Source: a virus. Taken from it: a DNA stretch of 41,508 nt. Positions 1 through 41,508 of this stretch are shown here, one piece after another. Position numbers and translations under genes: made by a program. Every line of letters starts with the position of its first letter. Positions within the stretch are counted from its first letter, which is position 1. Under the pieces are notes generated by a model that was not told the origin of the DNA, did not search any database, and was given only the letters and a program-made list of their open reading frames with translations. The DNA lies in the IMG/VR virus record IMGVR_UViG_3300024520_000170, positions 1 through 41,508 of that record; one strand, written 5' to 3'.

Positions 1-1458
1 CGGCGGTCACGGTTAGCACGTTGGCAGCAGGGGTTCCAGTGTACGACTGGTCAAGGTATACGTCACACTCATATCTGGACAGGTGGTACTTATCGGTTCC
101 GTCAATGGCAATATAGAAGTCGTCTCCTGTAGTTGCATTAACGGTGCCCCCAGTGTTGTAGTGCCTTGCAGGGGATATAGCAGCGCAGATTGGCAACTTC
201 ATTCGGCTCCAACCGAATGCCCCCTCCTGCTCATTTACACGGCAGGAAAGCACTTCCCCGTTCGACAAGCGAACTAGCAATACGGGGTCCTCGTCGCCCT
301 CCCATACAACCAACTCTTTTATCGCAAGGCCCTTGAACAGGTGTCGGTGGTCTTCTGTGATATTAAGGCTCATGTACCGCTGGTTATCGAACCTGAACCT
401 TTGCGCCCTTATGGTCCGACAATCCTTTTGCACGTAGAAGATATAGGTCCCGGCGATCACTGGCCGAACAGTAGCGGATCCGTAAGCACTGTGCCTCTCA
501 ACCCCTACGCTTGTAGGAGACAGTGGCGCACCACCTATAGCGAACTCTCCTGTCGTCGTTCCTACCATAAGATCTTTACCGGAAGACATCCAGCGAACCA
601 GGCTTCCCCGCATATCATTGACAATGAAGTGCATCGCATCTGGTGAGGTTCCCCCTAGTGTGAAATCATACTTCGAGGCGGCTGAACTACCAACAACAAC
701 CTCAGGGTTACGCTCGAATCCTGAGAAGTACACACGTCCCTGGTGGCTAGTGCCGCAAGTGGGAAACCCAACGCCCTCTGACCAACCGAGGCTGTACTTT
801 GAAGTAACGCTTTGGTTGGCGGGCGGGGAAATGACATACGCATGATAGTATAGGCGGGTAGTGGCTGTGGAGTTGCCACTGCTGCGCTTCTTAGCAGAGA
901 GGGCGAAGGTCCCGCCGTTGAAGTGCACTACTCCTCCCACTTTTGGCTCGTCCTGTGGGGCTACCAAGTCCATGTCGCCACGTGTCCGTGTGTCGAACGC
1001 ACTCTCGTGGCCTTCTGGTACACTAGCGTGCGTAGCAGCAGAAGAGAAGGCTCCGCCCGACGGCTTTTCAGTGTTTCCTACATGGATAAACACCTTATCG
1101 CCAACCCTGGGGGTTGTGTAGTACTGGGTTCCAATCTCCGTCTGTTCTGTGCCTATCTGGTGAGTCCAGCACAATGTTCTTTCGTACCTCTCAGCCGAAC
1201 CTGTCTTGTTGACTAGCCTGTAGAGGTCTCCAGTTCCTCCACCTGCTACCTGATCCACCCTAGCCACGCCCTCTATGTAGGAGTAGTCATGTTCGGCACC
1301 TCCACCAGTGCTTACCGTGCCTTGGTCTCCACTAGTCGGGAACACTGTTCCTGTCTCCGTTAAAACGGCTTCAGTGCTTGGGTCGTAGTACTCCAACCAG
1401 TCAGCGAAGGCGTTCATTCCGGCGGGCTGGTTAGGGGGGGCAGTGGTACCTGAGTCTA
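1..1458. repeat. Left copy of divergent terminal overlap
   Basis: Bases 1-1458 align base for base with 40051-41508 at a constant offset of 40050. I count about 53 substitutions and no insertion or deletion (roughly 96% identity), and the reading frame stays intact in both copies. Some changes are silent and some replace residues, for example around 855-880. An exact terminal redundancy or a direct terminal repeat should be identical, so the copies look like two variants of one locus in a population, joined when a circular genome was assembled. Confidence 0.9.
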
Positions 1459-2980
1459 GAACAGTGGCGGTGCCCAGAGTAGTTCCCCCGGTGTCCTTGA
1501 ACGTGATCGTGTCCCCGGCAGAGAAAGATGTTCCAAGGGTGGCTCCGGTTGGCGCAACGTCGTATATCGTGTACACTGACCTATTTCTCAGCGATGTGGG
1601 CGTCGTTAAGCCACTCCCAGCAGTCTGCCAGATATTAGCCTCGTCACCGTTTATTACTGTAGCCAGGAATGGAGTGTCTTCATATGGAAGTGACCCAACT
1701 CCCTCGGGATCAATCTTAGCACTAGGGGCGTTAATGATTGCATAGCCCTCCTTTGTGGTATCGGTGGTCTTCAACTTGCCTAGAATGCATCCAACAAGGG
1801 ACGACTCAGACATATTCAGGCCTGACATAGCAATGCCCGTTATGTGCATTTCTGATTTGGACATGGTCGCCACGTCTGTGCCAGTAGTATCCTCTGTACC
1901 ACGTACTGTGTGGCTGAATGTAAGAACACCGTCAGTCTCTTTGACCCACGGGCCATCCCAGTCGTTGGGGTCTGATATGTCTGCGACGTAAGACCTGCCG
2001 TTAACCAACATCTGCGAGATCGTCTCAACTGTTACTTGACGAAGCGAATCGACTGATTTGACACGCACAAAGAACCCATGCCTATCGTCATGTTGTTCAA
2101 GCGTTACGCCGCTATGAGTCGCAGTCGAAGAAGCAGAGGGGAGGGTGAAATGTCCTATCCGGTAAATATGCCCAACGTCCTCGCTATTGAACCAGTTACG
2201 ATTCGTAGCCATTCTATATGTGCCCCCTCCGGCGATTTTAGTGCTATCGCCGGGGAGGAGGTCGAGTGTGAACCGTTGCCCTCTTATGTCCACGGGTGGC
2301 GACCTATGCACACAGTCGTACGGACGAGTGTCGAATACAGCCAGCCCCCCCTTGGACCTGGACAAGAACAACTCGAAGGGCTGCACTTCTCCGTGGCACA
2401 GTATGAGCGAGTCCTCGTGCTGGAAGTACTGGACCTCCTCTAGTTGGGCGGCAGTGAAGGGGTGTAGTCCGCATGATCGGAACAGGTTCTTGTCGGTCGC
2501 AAGGTCGCCAATGGCTGGGTCTACGCCCAGAGGAATGTAGTCTGCTGCGGTACTTGCGCCGCTTGACGGGAGAGAGGAGAATGGGAGATTGCATCCCTTG
2601 TTAGCCAGCCATGATTGTCCATGGTCTGCGAACATCACATTGGTAGAGCCCGCACCTGGGTGAGTGTTGTTAAGCACTGCCGTGACTATGCCCCAGGTCT
2701 TACCGTTGGCTGTGACTACCTCAAACACTATGACGTACTGACTACTAAGGTGGGTGTACGGGATCAGTTTGATAGCAGTAGAGGTGTATGTACCCTCCCC
2801 AGTTCCACCTGTCGTGGCCTCATGGACGGTTCCGCAACGCTTCTCAATAGACCCACCAGAGGACACTATCCCACCCTCTAGATTCCTGCACGAGGTCTCA
2901 TACACCTTAGGGCGTGCCTGTGCGTCTACATGGGGGGAGACTTCGCCATTCCTGAAACTAGTCTGCGGAACCCATACCAT
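1..2980 (-). CDS. Tail nozzle protein, T7 gp12-like (tail tubular protein B), 5' part; runs off left edge
   Basis: Reading the minus strand from the ATG at 2980 gives an open frame with no stop down to base 1 (993 codons). Because bases 1-1458 repeat 40051-41508, the frame continues at 40050 and stops at 39584, for a protein of about 1148 aa on the closed circle. The start overlaps the stop of the tail adaptor as TAATG, with AGGAG nine bases upstream. Its position after a gp11-like adaptor and before gp14/15/16-like ejection genes, its size (T7 gp12 is about 794 aa), and its C-terminal WSRMKLP and beta-rich text fit the nozzle at the tip of a podovirus tail. The family call rests mostly on gene order and on the C-terminal half; residues 1-520 alone I would not have recognised. 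Confidence 0.72.
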   Translation of the reverse strand, partial: MVWVPQTSFRNGEVSPHVDAQARPKVYETSCRNLEGGIVSSGGSIEKRCGTVHEATTGGTGEGTYTSTAIKLIPYTHLSSQYVIVFEVVTANGKTWGIVTAVLNNTHPGAGSTNVMFADHGQSWLANKGCNLPFSSLPSSGASTAADYIPLGVDPAIGDLATDKNLFRSCGLHPFTAAQLEEVQYFQHEDSLILCHGEVQPFELFLSRSKGGLAVFDTRPYDCVHRSPPVDIRGQRFTLDLLPGDSTKIAGGGTYRMATNRNWFNSEDVGHIYRIGHFTLPSASSTATHSGVTLEQHDDRHGFFVRVKSVDSLRQVTVETISQMLVNGRSYVADISDPNDWDGPWVKETDGVLTFSHTVRGTEDTTGTDVATMSKSEMHITGIAMSGLNMSESSLVGCILGKLKTTDTTKEGYAIINAPSAKIDPEGVGSLPYEDTPFLATVINGDEANIWQTAGSGLTTPTSLRNRSVYTIYDVAPTGATLGTSFSAGDTITFKDTGGTTLGTATVLDSGTTAPPNQPAGMNAFADWLEYYDPSTEAVLTETGTVFPTSGDQGTVSTGGGAEHDYSYIEGVARVDQVAGGGTGDLYRLVNKTGSAERYERTLCWTHQIGTEQTEIGTQYYTTPRVGDKVFIHVGNTEKPSGGAFSSAATHASVPEGHESAFDTRTRGDMDLVAPQDEPKVGGVVHFNGGTFALSAKKRSSGNSTATTRLYYHAYVISPPANQSVTSKYSLGWSEGVGFPTCGTSHQGRVYFSGFERNPEVVVGSSAASKYDFTLGGTSPDAMHFIVNDMRGSLVRWMSSGKDLMVGTTTGEFAIGGAPLSPTSVGVERHSAYGSATVRPVIAGTYIFYVQKDCRTIRAQRFRFDNQRYMSLNITEDHRHLFKGLAIKELVVWEGDEDPVLLVRLSNGEVLSCRVNEQEGAFGWSRMKLPICAAISPARHYNTGGTVNATTGDDFYIAIDGTDKYHLSRYECDVYLDQSYTGTPAANVLTVTA

Positions 2981-3618
2981 TAACTACTACTCCTGTATCT
3001 TGACTCAACCAGTTCGGACGGGCCGAAGAAGATCCCAGAGGACTCTTGACCGTCAATACCACGTGCCTTGAGTAGGGCCTCTCGTGCCTTCTGCTCAATC
3101 AGAGTTATGTCGTCCGCACTCTTGCCAAAGTTCGGGGCAACGAAGGCAGCAAAGGCCAGCCCCAGTGCGTGCTTCATGGCAGGGGCCAGGAAGGTTCCTA
3201 TGTTAGCGTCTCCTGGATCGAAAACATACTCCAACTTGACCGTACTCTGGTTCGTGCAGATACAGCGAGACTTGGCGCCTGCGCTGTCAGATACGATCTC
3301 GATCTCCCACATGACCCGCTCTGCGTTGCCAGCCTGATTCGGGTGCCCATTCACAGTGAGCGCCCGGAGGTAGTCTGACGGCAGTGAGAAGACGTTCCCC
3401 CACCGGGTGGTGTCCTTGAAGTCCGAGTTCGCCAGGGCAGTGAGGGCGGCGGTAGTCTTGCAGCCATTCCATGCGTGGTCGCTCACGAACTGTTTTCTAA
3501 AGTTGTCCCAGACCTTCCTCAATAGGATTGCCTGCGCCGTCTGATCTGATACTGCGGAATCCACTGTACCAACACCTAGTTGGGTCAGCCCGGTATTCCA
3601 TATTTCCTCTAGTGACAT
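2980..3618 (-). CDS. Tail adaptor, T7 gp11-like (tail tubular protein A), internal start
   Basis: Internal ATG at 3618, in frame with the 931-codon frame, preceded by GAGGAG with seven bases between GGAG and ATG. It would make 212 aa, close to T7 gp11 (196 aa). The text opens MSLEEIWNTGL and contains LLRKVWDNFRKQFVSDHAW, FSLPSDYLRAL and a helical C-terminus, typical of the gp11 adaptor ring that joins portal to nozzle. The stop overlaps the start of the gp12-like gene (TAATG), the usual gp11-gp12 order. The independent start makes a normal-sized adaptor the most likely main product. Known: gp11 forms a dodecameric adaptor below the portal. Inferred: the same role here. Confidence 0.75.
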   Translation of the reverse strand: MSLEEIWNTGLTQLGVGTVDSAVSDQTAQAILLRKVWDNFRKQFVSDHAWNGCKTTAALTALANSDFKDTTRWGNVFSLPSDYLRALTVNGHPNQAGNAERVMWEIEIVSDSAGAKSRCICTNQSTVKLEYVFDPGDANIGTFLAPAMKHALGLAFAAFVAPNFGKSADDITLIEQKAREALLKARGIDGQESSGIFFGPSELVESRYRSSS

Positions 3619-5775
3619 TATCTCGCTCCTCTTCAACAGGTTATGGGTTAGATCTCCAACCCCGTCTATGGTAACAGATATAAGGTATGTTGCCGACTCT
3701 ATACGAGATACGTCAGTGGGGTCTGATACTGTCCCGGTTCCCTGAAGGCTAATAACCACCTTCGCTTGAACTTCACTGTCGTCTGTCACCGTGAGCGAAT
3801 CCGTCGTATGTACAAGGCTGTGAATCAACACCACAGCAGCGTCATAGGTTGGTTCGATTAAGTCGGTGGCCGAGAGGTTGTGAGTGCTAGTGACCGTGAG
3901 AGCAGCAGTATCCTGAGTGACCTGTATCGTGCCAGCCGTATGTGCAAGATTGTGCGTGCTAGTGACCGTGAGAGCGGCAGTCTGAGTAGGCGCTATCAAC
4001 CCCGCCGTATGTGCGAGTCGGTGTATTGTAAGTACAAGGGCAGCGGCAGTGTCTTGAGTGAGGTCTATCGAGTCGGCTGTATGGGCCAGGTTATGCGTCA
4101 ACTTCAACGTTGAGTCATGAGTAGGCTCTATTGATCCCGCCGTATGTACTAGGCTTCGTGTCAACTTCAACGTGGAGTCGTGGGTGGGCGTTATCGTGCC
4201 AGCCGTGTGTGCAAGTTTATGCGTCAACTTCAATGCGGCAGTGTCCTGGGTCGGTGCTATTGAACCCGTCGTGTGGACAAGGCTGCGTATTGTTGAACCA
4301 GTCGAGGTGATAGCGGCAGTGTCTTGAGTGATGTCTATCGAGTCGGCGGTATGGGCCAGGTCGTGCGTTTGGTCGGCAGTTATTGCAGCAGTGTCTGACG
4401 TGATAACGACACGACTGGAAACGGGGACGCCGAAGAAGGTGAGGACCCCAAGGTCGTGCGTTTGGACTGCGGTTATATCAGCAGTGTCTTGCGTGATGTC
4501 TACCGAACCTGCCGTATGCGTAAGACTGCGAGTCAACTTCAACGTTGAGTCATGAGTCGGCGCTATCGAACCCGTAGTGTGGGCAAGGCTGTGTATGCTG
4601 TCGGAGTTGATATCAGCAGTGTCTTGCGTGATGTCTATCGAACCTGCCGTGTGCGCTAGTTCATGGGTTTGGTCGGCAGTGATATCGGCGGTCACCGGGG
4701 CAGGACCCCCACCTCCGATATTTAGGTTGGTATCGACTGGGAAGCCGAAGGTAAAGGAGACGGCAAGGTTATGCGTCAACTTCAATGCGGCAGTGTCCTG
4801 GGTCGGTGCTATTGAACCCGTCGTGTGGGCCAGGCTGTGTGTACTGGTGACCGTGAGAGCGGCAGTATCCTGAGTAGGCTCTACTGAATCCGTCGTGTGC
4901 GCCAGGCTGTGTGTGGTAGCACCCGAGGTGATTGTGATATGAGAGTATTGAGTCCCGGCAGGGAGCGGAAAGTCCACCATTAGGTACTGGTTGATGGCCG
5001 TGGATGAAAGATTATGGATAGTCTTGGAGGTGATATCGGCAGTGTCTTGAGTGGGCGCTATTGAACCCGTCGTGTGTGCAAGGTCGTGCGTTTGGACTGC
5101 GGTTATTGAACTGGCGGAAGTGCTGGTCGTTATTGCGCCTGCCGTGTGTGATAGGCTGTGTGTGGATGTAACAGTAACGGAGGAAGTATGAGTGGGCGCT
5201 ATCGAACCCGTGGTGTCAGCCAGGCTATGGGTGGTGCTAGAAGCAGCGGCAGTTGTAACCGTCATGAGGGTGAACGTAGCGGTTCCGTCGTTCTTTGAGC
5301 CCCATGAAGATTGGAACTGATAGTCCGTGCTGGCTGGGCAGTTCCCCATGTCTATCGCCCATTGGGCTTCAGTCTGTGCGTCCTTGACTTCAGCCCCGTA
5401 GTTTTGCGAGGTCGAACTTGTGAACTCTTTACCACTAGCAACGAACCCATCGCTATTAGGTCCATCGCTCAGGGTGCCTCTTCGGTTCCCGGTCGCCACA
5501 TTGGTTCCGTTGGTTATGGTTCCAGTGGCGTTGTCAAGGTGCGGGCCAGTAGCGTTCGTCAAGGCTAAGGTTGCGAAGGTTCCGCTAGGAAGCACCCTCC
5601 ATTGGAGAGAGTGCGACTGTCCTGTACGGAACTCGGAACCACCGTCCTCTACAGAGGATGCCAGTATGAACAGGCCAGCATCTCCCGACACTAGCGTATA
5701 GTCAGCATCGAGACCCACACCTGATATGTTTGCCCGACTGCTGTCACATATCCTGGATCCTAAATGTGCAGTCAC
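2980..5775 (-). CDS. Repeat-rich tail-region protein in one frame with the tail adaptor (931 aa)
   Basis: The start is GTG at 5775, preceded by a strong TAAGGAGGT site six bases upstream. Residues 1-182 are Gly/Ser/Thr-rich and look beta-stranded. Residues 183-675 are about 20 degenerate units of 21-35 aa with the core HxLAHTxGSIxPTQDT. Residues 676-719 form a short linker. Residues 720-931 are a complete gp11-like adaptor. No stop codon separates the repeat part from the adaptor, yet codon 720 is an ATG with its own GGAG site. The long chain may be a true fusion, or the two parts may be made separately with the long form as a minor readthrough-like product. The repeat part resembles fibrous tail or decoration proteins in composition only; I do not recognise the family. 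Confidence 0.7.
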   Translation of the reverse strand: MTAHLGSRICDSSRANISGVGLDADYTLVSGDAGLFILASSVEDGGSEFRTGQSHSLQWRVLPSGTFATLALTNATGPHLDNATGTITNGTNVATGNRRGTLSDGPNSDGFVASGKEFTSSTSQNYGAEVKDAQTEAQWAIDMGNCPASTDYQFQSSWGSKNDGTATFTLMTVTTAAASSTTHSLADTTGSIAPTHTSSVTVTSTHSLSHTAGAITTSTSASSITAVQTHDLAHTTGSIAPTQDTADITSKTIHNLSSTAINQYLMVDFPLPAGTQYSHITITSGATTHSLAHTTDSVEPTQDTAALTVTSTHSLAHTTGSIAPTQDTAALKLTHNLAVSFTFGFPVDTNLNIGGGGPAPVTADITADQTHELAHTAGSIDITQDTADINSDSIHSLAHTTGSIAPTHDSTLKLTRSLTHTAGSVDITQDTADITAVQTHDLGVLTFFGVPVSSRVVITSDTAAITADQTHDLAHTADSIDITQDTAAITSTGSTIRSLVHTTGSIAPTQDTAALKLTHKLAHTAGTITPTHDSTLKLTRSLVHTAGSIEPTHDSTLKLTHNLAHTADSIDLTQDTAAALVLTIHRLAHTAGLIAPTQTAALTVTSTHNLAHTAGTIQVTQDTAALTVTSTHNLSATDLIEPTYDAAVVLIHSLVHTTDSLTVTDDSEVQAKVVISLQGTGTVSDPTDVSRIESATYLISVTIDGVGDLTHNLLKRSEIMSLEEIWNTGLTQLGVGTVDSAVSDQTAQAILLRKVWDNFRKQFVSDHAWNGCKTTAALTALANSDFKDTTRWGNVFSLPSDYLRALTVNGHPNQAGNAERVMWEIEIVSDSAGAKSRCICTNQSTVKLEYVFDPGDANIGTFLAPAMKHALGLAFAAFVAPNFGKSADDITLIEQKAREALLKARGIDGQESSGIFFGPSELVESRYRSSS
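3750..5229 (-). repeat. About 20 degenerate in-frame repeats, core HxLAHTxGSI
   Basis: At the protein level (H/R)xL(A/V/S)HT(T/A)(G/D)SIxxTQDTAAxxLT recurs about 20 times. Most units are 21-26 aa (63-78 bp). Three are longer and carry inserts with FPLPAGTQ, FGFPVDTNLNIGGGG and FFGVPVSS. At the DNA level neighbouring units share blocks such as tgcgtcaacttcaa, showing recent unit duplication or exchange. Two histidines four residues apart recur in nearly every unit, which could bind metal in a fibrous trimer; that is inference. Confidence 0.85.
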
Positions 5776-5806
5776 CCCTCGACCTCCTTATGCAACCACA
5801 AGAGGT

Positions 5807-6307
5807 CTACTCTGCGGCTATGGCAAGTCCAGTACCACCGGAAACGATCTGCACAGTATCTCCCAGGCCCACAACAGCAGGAGTGGCGAAGGTGCCGTAA
5901 AAGATCATATTGGCGGTGGCTGCTACTGCTGCTGACGCACATGCATGGATCGTGTAGAAGGCGATATCAGGCCAGTCGGATGCGGCGGAAGTCGTGAACG
6001 TCACGGTGCTGGTTAGGGAAATAATGTTAGGGGTAGTAGAGGTACTGAAGGTCTTCGGAGTGAAGACGATTTCTTGTGCTGCGTATACCACGTCACCTCC
6101 GATGCTCCCTGTATAGGTAGTCCCCATGACAGCCTCGGTTGGGGCGGTCGCTCCTGAAGCCGTGGTGGCATGCAAGTGAATGAAGTATTTTACAGCAGTC
6201 GAGGCAACTGGACCCATCGCCGCCTGTACCGAATTTGCTACTGGGGCTTGGTCCGCAGAGAATATCCTATTCAGTGAAATCTGCTCGCCTAAGTTACTTA
6301 GTCCCAT
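5807..6307 (-). CDS. Small virion protein, Ala/Thr-rich (166 aa)
   Basis: ATG at 6307 with GAGG about ten bases upstream; the stop is followed by a 31-base gap holding the strong ribosome site of the next gene. The protein is rich in Ala, Thr, Val and Ser, with alternating hydrophobic residues (for example ISLTSTVTFTTSA) that suggest beta strands. It has no signal peptide or catalytic motif. Lying between the capsid gene and the tail adaptor, it is probably a structural protein such as a head decoration or tail component. I do not recognise a family. Confidence 0.75.
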   Translation of the reverse strand: MGLSNLGEQISLNRIFSADQAPVANSVQAAMGPVASTAVKYFIHLHATTASGATAPTEAVMGTTYTGSIGGDVVYAAQEIVFTPKTFSTSTTPNIISLTSTVTFTTSAASDWPDIAFYTIHACASAAVAATANMIFYGTFATPAVVGLGDTVQIVSGGTGLAIAAE

Positions 6308-6308
6308 A

Positions 6309-6737
6309 TTAGTCTTCCCTCACTTTTATTGCGCCCGTACCGAAGGCTAACTCCTCCAATGGCGCTATTGTTATGTTTGCGTCAAGTGCTTCCCAGTATA
6401 GCAGATTGCCAACGGTAGCAGCATCGTAAATACCTATGCCCACAATGATCTCTTGCGTCCAACCACTCACGGCTGTTCCGGCAAACCAAGACACAGTGCC
6501 TACATTGTCGATTAACTTCTTGTCACCCTCTGACTTCACCGCCGACCAGTACGGAACAGTGGAGCCACTCGTGTATACCTGGGTCCTGGCTAGACCCGGG
6601 CAATCCGTTGCAGCCTCACCGTCCCCAGTTGGGTTCGCAGTGAGAAGAGCAATCCATGTCGTAGTGACCCCCGTGACCGATGCACCACCGATCAGTGACA
6701 AGCACTTTTGCGACCAGTAATGTGTCTTACCTGTCAC
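6309..6737 (-). CDS. Small structural protein with GIYDA/GNLLYW signature (142 aa)
   Basis: The open frame extends upstream to 6872 inside the capsid gene, but the natural start is GTG at 6737, eight bases after GAGG; a TTG at 6755, two bases after the capsid stop, is the alternative. The text WIALLTANP...LARTQVY...GIGIYDAATVGNLLYWEALDANITI matches, from memory, a widespread small phage virion protein with the pattern 'W.GL.T.DP...GYAR...GIFDA..GGNLLYW..L', often annotated as a tail or head-fibre protein. It follows the capsid gene directly and ends one base before the next start. Its exact place in the virion is not known to me. Confidence 0.75.
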   Translation of the reverse strand: MTGKTHYWSQKCLSLIGGASVTGVTTTWIALLTANPTGDGEAATDCPGLARTQVYTSGSTVPYWSAVKSEGDKKLIDNVGTVSWFAGTAVSGWTQEIIVGIGIYDAATVGNLLYWEALDANITIAPLEELAFGTGAIKVRED

Positions 6738-6756
6738 GAGGGTCCCCTCAATCAAA

Positions 6757-8103
6757 CTAGGCGATGGCTGCTTCGGTAGAACCCTTGTGACAGGGGATCG
6801 CAACCATCTTCTTGGGGTCCATGCGAACGGCACCAAGACTGAAGTCGTGGTAACACTGCAAGGAGTACCCACGGTCTGGGATCTCGTCGAATCGAACCGT
6901 CATTTCGTCACCCATGCCGAAGATGTTCGCATCCTCTGTGTACATCCACACGTAACGACCGTTCGTGGCCGTCTCGAAGGACAGAGTTGCGTATGCGTTA
7001 TCGGCGTTCGCAGGATCCTGGAGAGTCCCAGCACCAACGCCGGAGAGAACAGTCTCTTGCGGAATCTGGTTGCAGACACGGAACTCACAACCCAGGAACG
7101 GAACAGGTTGCCCGTACATGAGCGGCTGGAGTGCGTTGTAGTCTGAACTGGTGTACTGGACTTCGTGCATCAAGTCATTGACCTGATCCGGGTGAAGCAC
7201 AACGTAAATGCGCTGTCCCTGCCAAGCACCGTTCGTCTGAAGAACATTGAGGGCAGTCAACAACTTCTTGATGTGAAGCCCTCGTCCAGCATCAGTGGCA
7301 CCGGCGGTACCGCCAATAGTCGCCAGTGGACCCTCGACGATCTGCTGACAACCAAACTCCTGTGTAAGGGAGAAGGCGGGCAACACTCCGCCAGTGTAAG
7401 TCTCTCCTGCAAGGACAGCGGCTGCGGCTGCACCAATAGTTCCGGTGATGTTGTTGCCAGACGCTGAGTTATCATCGGGAGCACTCGCATCGCCGGGTCC
7501 ACCAAGCAGGTCGGTAGAAGAACCCGCTGCCAGTCCGCCAGCAATCGCAGTCGTGCTACCGTAAGCGAGATCGCAGTCCTTGCGGAAAGCATGCAACGCA
7601 ACGGTGTTGGCGTCTGTGAAACCCGTACCATTGACAGTCACGGGACCCCTGAAGGCATTGAGGATAACCTCGTCCTTCTTGCGGTTGAACGCCGCTGCCA
7701 CGTTGGCAACATAAGCACCGTCAGGCTGGATCGCACGCATGAGAGCACGCTCGTCACGAGGATCAAAGAGTTCAGCGAACTCATGGAACTCAGGACGAAG
7801 TTCTCTACGCTCGTTGTCGGTTTCCTTGTACGCCTTGTCTCCGGCAGCACTGTCGTTGCCGTACTGCTGACCACGGTCACGGGTCGTCAGGGTTACCGAC
7901 TTGTAAGAGTCAAGCATCAGGGGGTCACCACGAAGTACCTCGGGCATGCAGGTATCAGACAATGCAGAATGTAAGGTCTGCGCCTTCAGTCGAATCATGT
8001 CCGCATAAGCGGTCTTGAACAACTGTGTGTAGTTATTTGAGGCCGTGTTGGCGACGTTACCTGTGGTACCGGGCCAAGAAGTGCCAAAATCTGGATATGC
8101 CAC
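6757..8103 (-). CDS. Major capsid protein (448 aa)
   Basis: GTG at 8103 with GGAGGAG seven bases upstream. The text (YTQLFKTAYADMIRLKAQ, DSYKSVTLTTRDRGQQYGN, FDPRDERALMRAIQPDGAYVANVAAAFNRKKDEVI, and the C-terminal MGDEMTVRFDEIPDRGYS) resembles the Phage_capsid_2-type coat proteins of HK97-like fold found in podoviruses. Residues 170-245 hold a Gly/Ala/Ser-rich stretch likely to be a surface loop. It sits directly downstream of the scaffold and upstream of small virion genes, the standard head-gene order. A 142-base gap upstream suggests separate control of this abundant product. Confidence 0.85.
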   Translation of the reverse strand: MAYPDFGTSWPGTTGNVANTASNNYTQLFKTAYADMIRLKAQTLHSALSDTCMPEVLRGDPLMLDSYKSVTLTTRDRGQQYGNDSAAGDKAYKETDNERRELRPEFHEFAELFDPRDERALMRAIQPDGAYVANVAAAFNRKKDEVILNAFRGPVTVNGTGFTDANTVALHAFRKDCDLAYGSTTAIAGGLAAGSSTDLLGGPGDASAPDDNSASGNNITGTIGAAAAAVLAGETYTGGVLPAFSLTQEFGCQQIVEGPLATIGGTAGATDAGRGLHIKKLLTALNVLQTNGAWQGQRIYVVLHPDQVNDLMHEVQYTSSDYNALQPLMYGQPVPFLGCEFRVCNQIPQETVLSGVGAGTLQDPANADNAYATLSFETATNGRYVWMYTEDANIFGMGDEMTVRFDEIPDRGYSLQCYHDFSLGAVRMDPKKMVAIPCHKGSTEAAIA

Positions 8104-26084: not shown

Positions 26085-26856
26085 ACTTTGCACCGAAGGC
26101 ACGCTGTCGTTCCTTCTCCCTAAACCTCTGAATCCCCCGCAGTTGTGAACTACTAGGCTTGGGTTGGCTATTCCAGCGGCTGTCGATCTCCTTCTGCTTC
26201 TTGAGTATGTCCGCCAGCCGTGCGCCACCCCCTGGCAATGCGTTTACATTTATACCACCCGGGTCAGTATCCCTAGCCAACTTATTTGCAGGCGTGCGGC
26301 GTACAACAAACGCATGAAATATATCCGCAACACCAGTAGGTTGACCTGCATTACGTGCTTCGTTTAGTCTATTCTGAGCAGCCTTCGACGCCCACCCGAA
26401 CTGTGTCCTCATCAGTGCCCCTTGCAAGAGGCTAGCCATGCTTGCACCAGGATCCGTCCAACCCTTAAATGGGACGTCTATTGCTCTTGTGTCCAGTTCA
26501 CCCATGATATTACCGGGCCTTGGGCTCCCACCTTGTCTGGTGTCTGAGTTGTACACTCCGCCTCCCTCGTAGCCCCTCGCTGCCGCCACCATGGGTGCTA
26601 GTCTGGACATGTCTTGTGGGCTCATGTTTGCAGTGAAGGCATGGAGTGCTGCCTTTCTCTCAAGCCTGCCCTGTTCGGGTGTGCCATACATGATTACGTT
26701 CCAGGGTGGCTGGTCATGTTTCTGCTCCTTAAAGGCTGGTTCCTTGGTCCTGCCGACATTCTCTATGTGCTGGAGTGACGCAAGTATGTTGCGGTGGGCT
26801 GGCTCTTTCTTACGCTCAGGCAACCACTTGTAAGGCTTCCACTTATGCTGAGGCAT
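26083..26856 (-). CDS. Unknown last late gene (257 aa)
   Basis: ATG at 26856 overlaps the previous stop (TAATG). The protein is basic at both ends (HKWKPYKWLPERKKEPAH; RFREKERQRAFGAK) and Gly/Ala-rich in the middle (MVAAARGYEGGGVYN, MASLLQGALMRTQFGWASKAAQNRLNEAR). There is no signal peptide or catalytic motif. Lying after the lysis-like genes at the end of the late arm, it could be virion or lysis related. I cannot assign it. Confidence 0.72.
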   Translation of the reverse strand: MPQHKWKPYKWLPERKKEPAHRNILASLQHIENVGRTKEPAFKEQKHDQPPWNVIMYGTPEQGRLERKAALHAFTANMSPQDMSRLAPMVAAARGYEGGGVYNSDTRQGGSPRPGNIMGELDTRAIDVPFKGWTDPGASMASLLQGALMRTQFGWASKAAQNRLNEARNAGQPTGVADIFHAFVVRRTPANKLARDTDPGGINVNALPGGGARLADILKKQKEIDSRWNSQPKPSSSQLRGIQRFREKERQRAFGAK

Positions 26857-27848
26857 TACTCCCTGCCCTTACGTGTCGAACCATACACCGCTGCGGCTGC
26901 GCCGCCAATGTATGCTGCCTTCTTCGCACGTGTCTTAGCCTTCTGTTTCTTAAAACTACGTAGTCTCTCGGACATACGCAAAGGCTTGGTGATTCTCCTT
27001 GATGGCTCGCCATACTGTACCAGCGTTATTCCGTGGGGCTCCGCTCCATGCTGGACCATTGCCTCCATAAACTCATTCTCTAACTTAAGACTAGGTGGGG
27101 GGGGATTGAGGTGCGTCCTGGGTCCTGGCAGGCTAGGCGCATCGAACGACGGTCCATAGTACTTGCTCATGGCAGGGACTCGAAACTCGGGCCGCTTCTG
27201 TCTGTCTAATGCACGTTGTACTATATACCGCATGCCTTGGAACGGGTTCTGTAGTGCTTCTTGAGGGCCTGATATCATACCACTGGCACCGGCTAGCCTA
27301 TCCATGAGATCTACTACGCTCTTACGATCTGGTGGCTTCTGTCCAGTAATCCTCGCTGACTCATGGAAGAACTTGCGTAGTGAAGCCGCCTGATCCTGCG
27401 CTGCCCCAGCGAATGTTTCCCAAGTCCTCTCGTGTACGGGGTGATGCACACCTGCATCCCTGATCAAGCGCCTAATGGTTTGATCCACATGGTCTGCGAA
27501 GTCCCGTTGGACTTTCCCCGGGTAGGGCGTCTCACTAATCCTCGCCAGTTCACGTGCGAGAGTTTTCATATCACTAGAATTGGAGTGCATTGACAGCCCT
27601 TTCGCAGATCGGCCAATCTGCGAGACGGGTATGTCTTCGGCTAGTAGGTTCATAGGAAGTAGGTTGGGGTCATAGGTCACGCTTGTGCTTGGGACTGTAG
27701 TCTTAGTCTTAGGGGTACGAGGTGTCTTCGCACCGTACGAACTCTTGAGGCTGGGCTTAGGGGTGGCAATGCCACGTAGTTTCCTTGAGGCCCTACCCCT
27801 GCCTAGACCTATGCCAAGCCCTCTTAGTACCTTGCCAATCACTGACAT
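26856..27848 (-). CDS. Unknown basic protein with termini like its neighbour (330 aa)
   Basis: ATG at 27848 with GGGAG eight bases upstream, overlapping the preceding stop. The N-terminus MSVIGKVLRGLGIGLGRGRASRKLRGIA and the C-terminal KAKTRAKKAAYIGGAAAAVYG resemble those of the next gene upstream (28663), while the middles differ. The middle is helical (TLARELARISETPYPGKVQRDFADHVDQTIRRL). Proteins with similar GKVLR-type basic starts and small Ala/Gly-rich hydrophobic ends might associate with DNA or membrane; no family is recognised. Confidence 0.72.
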   Translation of the reverse strand: MSVIGKVLRGLGIGLGRGRASRKLRGIATPKPSLKSSYGAKTPRTPKTKTTVPSTSVTYDPNLLPMNLLAEDIPVSQIGRSAKGLSMHSNSSDMKTLARELARISETPYPGKVQRDFADHVDQTIRRLIRDAGVHHPVHERTWETFAGAAQDQAASLRKFFHESARITGQKPPDRKSVVDLMDRLAGASGMISGPQEALQNPFQGMRYIVQRALDRQKRPEFRVPAMSKYYGPSFDAPSLPGPRTHLNPPPPSLKLENEFMEAMVQHGAEPHGITLVQYGEPSRRITKPLRMSERLRSFKKQKAKTRAKKAAYIGGAAAAVYGSTRKGRE

Positions 27849-28663
27849 TAGTGCTTCTCCCTTGTTGCTGCGTATGCGCCAGCACCTACGAAGGCAGCCT
27901 GCTTAACCTTCTTCTTTACTGCTCGCCTCTTCATGCGTTGGAGTCTATGTGCCATGCGTGCTGGGGCTTTGTCGAGCCCATGCGCCCTACCTGGCCTTCC
28001 CCAAGGGTCCTCGAAGGACGCCAGTTGACGGAAGGCTTGCAACTCAGTGGTCATATAGTGCTTGATATTATAGAGTTCCCGGCCAAACTTTTCTAATGCA
28101 ATATCAGGCCTGAAGAAGTCCATAACATCTAGCGGGGCCATGGCTTCGGATTTTGAGATACCTGTATCTCCGAAGTGGTCGAACTGGCTGGCGAAGTTCT
28201 CGTGATCGTCGTATATTTTTTTAGCCTTATTCCTTTGGATCCGAACGTTACGCTTCGCCTCTGCCGCACGCCGATCAAGACGTTCCGCTCTCCCCCATCC
28301 AGCAGGCAATGAGTCCAACTTTCCTTTTGCGTCTTCTAGTCGTACCATGGAGATAGTTTCTCTCCCTGTTCCTTTCCTGCGTCCCTTCTTCGCAAACCTC
28401 TGCTTGATGGCGTCAACCGACTTGCCTATCGAGGGGCTTCGATCCTTGATTCCTTGATTCACCTGGGATTGCAGTTCCTTAAACGCAGGCGAAGTATCCG
28501 GACCCATCACCTCGTCCATTTCTTTCTTCAAGGACTTTAGTTCCTTGAGATTCTTCTTCTTGGCGGCAGCAATGCCACGTAGTTTCCTGGACGTACGGCT
28601 ACGACCACCAGCAGGGGCCACCTTCATGAGGGACCGCAGGATCTTGCCAACTGCTGACATCAC
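27848..28663 (-). CDS. Unknown basic protein with termini like its neighbour (271 aa)
   Basis: The start is either of two adjacent ATG codons (28663 or 28660), overlapping the lipoprotein stop. The N-terminus SAVGKILRSLMKVAPAGGRSRTSRKLRGIAAAKKK is highly basic; the C-terminus RRAVKKKVKQAAFVGAGAYAATREKH matches the style of the 330-aa neighbour. In between are long charged helices (LKELKSLKKEMDEV, AEAKRNVRIQRNKAKKIYDDHE), likely coiled coil. It is probably a virion or DNA-associated protein by composition only. Confidence 0.72.
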   Translation of the reverse strand: MMSAVGKILRSLMKVAPAGGRSRTSRKLRGIAAAKKKNLKELKSLKKEMDEVMGPDTSPAFKELQSQVNQGIKDRSPSIGKSVDAIKQRFAKKGRRKGTGRETISMVRLEDAKGKLDSLPAGWGRAERLDRRAAEAKRNVRIQRNKAKKIYDDHENFASQFDHFGDTGISKSEAMAPLDVMDFFRPDIALEKFGRELYNIKHYMTTELQAFRQLASFEDPWGRPGRAHGLDKAPARMAHRLQRMKRRAVKKKVKQAAFVGAGAYAATREKH

Positions 28664-39584: not shown

Positions 39585-41508
39585 TAACCCTCCACACTCA
39601 TGTCAACAGTATAGCCACATAACTCCACCGGGTACGGCCTGTCAGAACTTATCACAAGTAACGGCTGGATCCCGTACAACCCAGTAGCAACGCACTCCAA
39701 CCATGCTGTGTGTTCCGTGTGTGGAGTGACTTGGTTGCTAGTTAGGTCCAGCGGTACGCCGTCGATTTCCAATCCGTTGACCTTGACGCCCTTGCTCCCA
39801 TTGACATTGACTACGACCGACGAATAGTTCTTCATTCTTCCAAGGGTGGAAGTAACACGAATGCCTGCCACTACTTCAGGAACTCTAGGGGTAACTGAGA
39901 AAGGTATGGCAAGACCTACGGTAGCAGAAGAGGCGGTGGTGCCCATTGAGGCACTGAAGTCCAGCACCCCAGTTGTGTTATCCACCGTTCCGGTACCCTT
40001 GTAAAGGCCATCCGCAACAATGTGCACGACCTGACCCCTTAACGGGTGTCCGGCGGTCACGGTTAGCACGTTGGCAGCAGGGGTTCCAGTGTACGACTGG
40101 TCAAGGTATACGTCACACTCATATCTGGACAGGTGGTACTTATCGGTTCCGTCAATGGCAATATAGAAGTCGTCTCCCGTAGTCGCATTAACGGTGCCCC
40201 CAGTGTTGTAGTGCCTTGCAGGGCATATAGCAGCGCAGATTGGCAACTTCATTCGGCTCCAACCGAATGTCCCCTCCTGCTCATTTACACGGCAGGCAAG
40301 CACTTCCCCGTTCGACAAGCGAACTAGCAATACGGGGTCCTCGTCGCCCTCCCAGACAACCAACTCCTTTATCGTAAGGCCCTTGAACAGGTGTCGGTGG
40401 TCTTCTGTGATATTAAGGCTCATGTACCGCTGGTTATCGAACTTGAACCTTTGCGCCCTTATGGTCCTCATATCTTTTTGAACGTAGAAGATATAGGTCC
40501 CGGCGATCACTGGCCGAACAGTAGCGGATCCGTAAGCACTGTGCCTCTCAACCCCTACGCTTGTAGGAGACAGTGGCGCACCACCTATAGCGAACTCTCC
40601 TGTCGTCGTGCCCAGCATGAGATCTTTACCTGAAGACATCCAGCGAACCAGGCTTCCCCGCATATCATTGACAATGAAGTGCATCGCATCTGGTGAGGTT
40701 CCCCCTAGTGTGAAATCATACTTCGAGGCGGCTGAACTACCAACAACAACCTGAGGGCTCCCCTCGAATCCTGAGAAGTACACACGTCCCTGGTGGCTAG
40801 TGCCGCAAGTGGGAAACCCTACACCCTCCGACCAACCGAGGCTGTACTTTGAAGTAACGCTTTGGTTGGCGGGCGGGGAAATGACATACGCATGATAGTA
40901 TAGGCGGGTATTGGCGGTGGAGTTAGAAGTGCTGCGCTTCTTAGCAGAGAGGGCGAAGGTCCCGCCGTTGAAGTGTACTACTCCTCCCACTTTTGGCTCG
41001 TCCTGTGGGACTACCAAGTCCATGTCGCCACGTGTCCGTGTGTCGAACGCACTCTCGTGGTCTTGTGGTACACTAGCGTGCGTAGCAGCAGAAGAGTAGG
41101 CTACGCCCGTCGGCTTTTCAGTGTTTCCTACATGGATAAACACCTTATCTCCCACCCCTGGGATTGTGTAGTACTGGCTTCCAATCTCCGCCTGTTCTGT
41201 GCCTATCTGGTGAGTCCAGCACAATGTTCTTTCGTACCTCTCGGTCGAACCTGTCTTGTTGACTAGCCTGTAGAGGTCTCCAGTTCCTCCACCTGCTACC
41301 TGCCCCACCCTAGCCACGCCCTCTATGTAGGAGTAGTCATGTTCGGCACCTCCACCAGTGCTTACCGTGCCTTGGTCTCCACTAGTCGGGAACACTGTTC
41401 CTGTCTCCGTTACAATGGCTTCAGTGCTTGGGTCGTAGTACTCCAACCAGTCAGCGAAGGCGTTCATTCCGGCGGGCTGGTTAGGGGGGGCAGTGGTACC
41501 TGAGTCTA
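39584..41508 (-). CDS. Tail nozzle protein, T7 gp12-like, 3' part; 5' end beyond right edge
   Basis: C-terminal 641 codons of the nozzle; the frame is open to the right edge, so the internal ATG at 41467 (MNAFADWLEYY) is not the true start. The remaining N-terminus is at the left end (1459-2980). The text contains RLSNGEVLACRVNEQEGTFGWSRMKLP, RYECDVYLDQSYTG, a VVHIVADGLYKGTG stretch and a C-terminal TEHTAWLECVATGLYGIQPLLVISSDRPYPVELCGYTVDMSVEG. These features recur in podovirus tail tubular B and related 'stabilisation' proteins ('YRYEcDvYLDs...', 'L.gl.vhIvaDG...G', 'P.pvel.g'). The stop overlaps the gp14-like start. Confidence 0.8.
   Translation of the reverse strand, partial: DSGTTAPPNQPAGMNAFADWLEYYDPSTEAIVTETGTVFPTSGDQGTVSTGGGAEHDYSYIEGVARVGQVAGGGTGDLYRLVNKTGSTERYERTLCWTHQIGTEQAEIGSQYYTIPGVGDKVFIHVGNTEKPTGVAYSSAATHASVPQDHESAFDTRTRGDMDLVVPQDEPKVGGVVHFNGGTFALSAKKRSTSNSTANTRLYYHAYVISPPANQSVTSKYSLGWSEGVGFPTCGTSHQGRVYFSGFEGSPQVVVGSSAASKYDFTLGGTSPDAMHFIVNDMRGSLVRWMSSGKDLMLGTTTGEFAIGGAPLSPTSVGVERHSAYGSATVRPVIAGTYIFYVQKDMRTIRAQRFKFDNQRYMSLNITEDHRHLFKGLTIKELVVWEGDEDPVLLVRLSNGEVLACRVNEQEGTFGWSRMKLPICAAICPARHYNTGGTVNATTGDDFYIAIDGTDKYHLSRYECDVYLDQSYTGTPAANVLTVTAGHPLRGQVVHIVADGLYKGTGTVDNTTGVLDFSASMGTTASSATVGLAIPFSVTPRVPEVVAGIRVTSTLGRMKNYSSVVVNVNGSKGVKVNGLEIDGVPLDLTSNQVTPHTEHTAWLECVATGLYGIQPLLVISSDRPYPVELCGYTVDMSVEG
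40051..41508. repeat. Right copy of divergent terminal overlap
   Basis: Second pass over bases 1-1458 with a constant offset and about 53 substitutions. It makes 40,050 bp the unit length and lets the nozzle gene close across the junction. The clustered changes near 40418-40432, 40610-40619, 40905-40930 and 41150-41165 look like strain variation rather than random sequencing error. Confidence 0.9.

Follow-up and report, generated by a model that had tools for sequence, protein, structure and literature searches.

The window, i.e., the whole 41,508 nt stretch of the viral IMG/VR record analysed here, carries on its minus strand an open reading frame of 931 codons (2980–5775), the C-terminal 212 of which encode a tail adaptor, with 719 codons preceding them. 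The features of the region are listed below.

2–2980, minus strand: tail nozzle gene, gp12-like (PHROG 376), overlapping the adaptor stop and continuing across the redundant contig ends
2980–5775, minus strand: fibre-adaptor ORF, predicted long form (931 aa, ~95 kDa), open in relatives
2980–3618, minus strand: tail adaptor of the T7 gp11 type, predicted short form (212 aa, ~23 kDa), identified by PHROG 394 and fold matches
3616–3618, minus strand: putative internal start (ATG) of the short form, a start codon in 29/29 aligned relatives
3619–3693, minus strand: conserved linker, 25 residues, from alignment, dN/dS and blastn
3626–3630, minus strand: internal Shine-Dalgarno (SD) sequence AGGAG, 7 nt upstream of the ATG
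3763–5232, minus strand: repeat shaft, ~20 units of the type THSLAHTTGSIAPTQDTAALTVTS, replaced by unrelated repeats in relatives
5236–5775, minus strand: N-terminal cap domain, ~180 aa, a predicted Ig-like beta-sandwich, exchanged between phages
5773–5775, minus strand: putative long-form start (GTG), from sequence
5783–5789, minus strand: long-form SD sequence AAGGAGG, with a spacing of 7 nt to the GTG
5807–6307, minus strand: small upstream gene, 166 aa, exchanged together with cap and shaft relative to contig L004

The original prediction described a 719-codon repeat part running into the adaptor without a stop. The open frame stands, with neither a stop nor a frame break at the junction, but the upstream part is not all repeats; it consists of a cap (ORF residues ~1–180), repeats (182 to ~671) and a linker (695–719). 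The claim that the adaptor has its own ATG and a good ribosome site was likewise upheld (ATG at 3618, AGGAG at 3630–3626, spacing 7 nt). In the window, the SD duplex energy is −10.3 for the long-form start and −7.6 for the internal start.

That the C-terminal part is gp11-like, as also proposed, was confirmed by sequence family and by fold. PHROG 394 (tail protein) matches adaptor residues 4–208 of 212 (E 1.9e-24), corresponding to ORF residues 721–927. An AF2 model built on 29 relatives has pLDDT values mostly of 70–90 across the adaptor (residues 131–319 of the modelled piece), and the order of two helices, a beta domain and three helices agrees with the helix bundle and beta dock fold. The model matches the Carin-1 adaptor with a Z score of 16.7 (rmsd 3.3 over 179 residues), followed by LME-1 (Z 15.2), T7 gp11 (Z 11.6), P22 gp4 (Z 9.5) and SU10 (Z 8.0). 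No solved adaptor matched by sequence up to E 1; the fold comparison succeeded. The fold alignments begin at residues 1–14 of the solved adaptors, so the internal start lies approximately where free-standing adaptors begin. The adaptor gene adjoins the nozzle gene directly downstream (PHROG 376), and capsid genes lie upstream. A second, free adaptor gene was considered and rejected, as the 12 fused records examined hold a single PHROG 394 match each (12/12).

The two ends of the window (1–1458 and 40051–41508) share an overlap of 1458 bases (96.6% identity, 50 mismatches, 2 gaps), while IMG/VR found no end repeats for the record. Given this overlap, the genome is probably nearly complete and closes into a unit of ~40 kb, and the mismatches suggest that the two contig ends come from different strains. 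Recognisable genes include those for portal, terminase, capsid, nozzle, internal virion-like proteins, primase-helicase and recombination, together with a weak holin-like match. The nozzle has ~430 extra residues ahead of the part matched by PHROG 376, and may hold an inserted domain. Among the scanned genes, no separate fibre gene was recognised, which is an absence of recognition and not proof of absence; a T7 gp17-type fibre (PF03906) went undetected in 12 records, as it did in the control genomes. The gene at 6309–6872 (minus strand), which directly follows the capsid gene, matches fibre I gp80 of podophage GP4 (PF23140, E 2.3e-16), and may specify a head-proximal fibre or decoration protein beside the fibre-adaptor.

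Distribution of the fusion among relatives

Scans of IMG/VR for relatives of the adaptor revealed a sharp split by adaptor identity. An in-frame arm is present in 42/42 contigs with an adaptor at least 39% identical; 29 of these are complete, with 618–992 open codons before the adaptor, and the remaining 13 are open to the contig edge. The fusion is kept across adaptors that are only 39–50% identical. Where the adaptor is 23–32% identical, the frame stays open for no more than 41 codons upstream in all 24 contigs, i.e., the adaptor is free-standing, and the same is true of three GenBank records (Pelagibacter phage HTVC024P, Yersinia phage YeP5 and an uncultured spring podovirus). A stop between the two parts, which had been raised as something to look for in related genomes, does not occur across the 42 clade members, and the distant relatives have free-standing adaptors. 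Given this sharp split, the fusion, as judged from these contigs, is long established in a single clade and does not stem from an indel. No relatives were found in bacterial and archaeal genome contigs with the patterns used.

The arm and its exchange

The AF2 model of the cap has pLDDT values mostly of 60–79, weaker around residues 84–108, giving moderate confidence in the fold, and it matches Ig-like domains at a Z score of ~9. The best structural matches were to antibody domains, read here as no more than the widespread Ig-like fold, given a model of medium confidence. Searches of Pfam and PHROGs with the caps gave no match, nor did three cap types searched in 50,697 phage records. Within IMG/VR, the caps searched (type A among them, with a narrower alignment) matched only adaptor-fused contigs or contigs cut off within the arm. 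The cap is probably the receptor-binding tip.

The shaft units are mostly of 21–24 residues and rich in Thr, Ala and Ser, and AF2 gave no confident fold for them. Three units hold longer, hydrophobic inserts (residues ~254–288, 335–370 and 440–470; window 5030–4400, minus strand), examples being NQYLMVDFPLPAGTQYSHI, VSFTFGFPVDTNLNI and VLTFFGVPVSSRVVI, two of which resemble each other. Inserts similar to those of the window are found at different places in contig L001. The linker, ending in ISVTIDGVGDLTHNLLKRSEI, is conserved in the alignment where the repeats are not. Values of dN/dS, where scorable, were 0.16–0.47 for linkers, 0.27–0.69 for arms and mostly 0.05–0.24 for adaptors. On these comparisons, the long frame is under selection at the protein level and the linker is under purifying selection.

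Comparison of the window with L004 by blastn showed DNA identities of 96.8% from the linker onwards and 87% upstream of window position 6282, while between 6282 and 3693, a segment comprising the small gene at 5807–6307, the cap and the repeats, there is no detectable similarity. The breakpoint of this exchange is the upstream end of the linker. L038 and L039 have adaptors that are 100% identical and arms that can be aligned, yet their caps are just 14% identical. Conversely, the cap DNA of L011 (93–1267) and L013 (604–1784) is 92% identical, whereas their adaptors are only about half identical. As read from these alignments, recombination exchanges caps and arms separately from the adaptor, and the arm resembles a host-range module in its behaviour. 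The likeness of the L011 and L013 caps has the appearance of a recent transfer of a tip module between distant phages.

Conservation of the internal start

With 29 fused proteins aligned, a start codon and an SD sequence occur together in 29/29 at the junction column alone; the next-best column reaches 28%, against a background of 1.6% per codon. The start codon varies between ATG, GTG and TTG across relatives, being GTG whenever the residue is Val and TTG whenever it is Leu, and in L058 a GTG start sits one codon earlier. The SD sequence is kept while the peptide overlapping it varies: KRSEI (AGGAGC), TNGEL (CGGAGA), KEVQA (AAGGAGGTG), TERQA (GAGAGG) and SDGEL. Unless initiation is selected for, swaps of this kind, among start codons or SD-bearing peptides, are not easily accounted for.

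The strength of the SD was compared with synonymous recodings that followed the codon use of each contig, for 21 representatives. The summed duplex energy was −157.6, against −89.5 for the recodings (z −6.4). Strength beyond the synonymous expectation gave a Fisher p of 5e-5, and a p of 0.002 for the 13 distinct junction peptides, values that are inflated by shared ancestry, the p per contig being mostly 0.03–0.4. A few members have a weak internal SD (−5.1 in L040, L042, L043 and L059). Among 81 offsets, mRNA structure is weakest at the internal start, and this holds after synonymous shuffling (combined Z 2.7, likewise inflated by shared ancestry). With the fusion conserved, the start and SD kept beyond synonymous expectation and the local mRNA structure weak, the sequence evidence speaks strongly for an in-frame fusion with a functional internal start.

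A mixed adaptor ring and its alternatives

Established at the genetic level are a conserved fusion, an internal start that is likewise conserved, and modular exchange of cap and arm. From here we infer two products, a mixed ring and receptor binding: with a probability of about two in three, this is one dual-start gene whose long product (a fibre-adaptor) and short product (an adaptor) co-assemble in one ring. Initiation at GTG 5775 would give a 931-residue fibre-adaptor with a variable cap, a shaft, a conserved linker and a C-terminal gp11-type anchor, the repeat shaft being flexible or multimerising. Initiation at ATG 3618 would give a free adaptor of 212 residues. With the adaptor domain in common, both forms would be built into the same dodecamer joining portal and nozzle, and how often each start is used would decide the number of armed positions out of 12. 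A ring of subunits with and without an arm would be the natural consequence of two starts. The chances are about even that a podovirus clade has, in this way, dispensed with docked fibres, such that a fibre of reversed polarity (N-terminal tip, C-terminal anchor) extends the adaptor and the internal start sets the armed fraction of the 12-mer.

If the internal start were only an ancestral relic, or consisted of residues needed by the protein, then the long fusion might be the only product, and the ring would carry 12 arms, which might associate in pairs or trimers. The stronger SD of the long frame in the window (−10.3 vs −7.6) agrees with this, and the free-standing adaptors of distant relatives imply that an ancestral start once existed. 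A relic should, however, decay among adaptors of 39–50% identity, and the start and SD are lost in no member; moreover, just GTG or TTG is used, though any Val or Leu codon would do, and production of the long form only is considered unlikely. Proteolysis offers another route to separate proteins, in which mainly the long chain is made and a protease cleaves it close to the junction, leaving arm and adaptor as separate virion proteins. Phage structural proteins are sometimes processed, and the conserved linker lies exactly at the junction, but none of the scanned genes was recognisable as a candidate protease and cleavage would leave the conserved SD and start unexplained, making it a quite improbable account.

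It would be more improbable still that the internal start supplies all of the ring adaptors while the fusion is a minor product with another role, e.g., as a capsid- or vertex-bound adhesin. The match of the upstream neighbour (6309–6872) to GP4 fibre I gp80 means that head-proximal fibres may exist, and the upstream gene at 5807–6307 is exchanged along with the arm; against this, no fusion has a disrupted adaptor or linker, and purifying selection acts on the two as a single frame. In another frame, the internal start is overlapped by a TAATG, which is common where genes overlap and might be taken as the mark of a missed stop or indel. An assembly or sequencing artefact was nonetheless rejected, its likelihood being negligible, since 42 further contigs share the identical open frame despite unrelated arm sequences.

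A gene that provides both armed and free adaptors for one ring can be compared with several known systems. In T7 and SU10, twelve adaptor subunits form a ring that lies between the portal and the nozzle and on which separate trimeric fibres dock (PMC6702177, PMC9509320); T7 gp11 assembles into its ring only when on the portal (PMC6702177). The window shares with them the adaptor fold and the gene position between capsid and nozzle; their fibres are separate and docked, whereas here the arm would be covalent at the adaptor N-terminus, with a free adaptor arising from the internal start. The HTVC024P and YeP5 adaptors are homologous (~27% identity) and lie between capsid and nozzle-position genes, but are free-standing, with 3 and 10 open codons upstream. 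For podophage GP4, the adaptor chain of PDB 8jov aligns to the model (Z 8.0) and the neighbouring gene matches gp80, but the 8jov adaptor chain has 213 residues, with no such arm in the matched chain. In M13, the long G1p and the in-frame, internally started short G11p of gene 1 co-purify in one ring complex (PMC9228878). The M13 pair thus resembles the proposed long and internally started short forms, including their presence in one ring complex, but it is an unrelated membrane assembly ATPase and not a virion adaptor, and both of its products have been shown where those of the window are predicted. T7 gp4A and gp4B likewise combine a long form and an internally started short form in a ring complex.

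The gp11-type adaptor, the nested in-frame gene and the swapping fibre are each of a known kind. No adaptor-fibre fusion or internally started tail protein was found in the open-licence literature searched, and none of the phage records searched showed the fibre-adaptor layout; such fibres may therefore be overlooked in annotation. If the proposal is correct, fibre number would be set by the choice of translation start and not by docking symmetry, and fusion would be an unusual means of equipping a phage tail with fibres. The proposal would also give this uncultured viral clade a recognisable, fast-swapping receptor-binding module, namely the cap ahead of a conserved linker and adaptor.

Elsewhere in the window, two adjacent Lys/Arg-rich proteins of 330 and 271 aa are encoded at 26856–28663 (minus strand). 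Both have basic tails and no family match, and they share similar N-termini (GKVLRGLG and GKILRSLM) as well as the sequence SRKLRGIA, so they are possibly paralogues.
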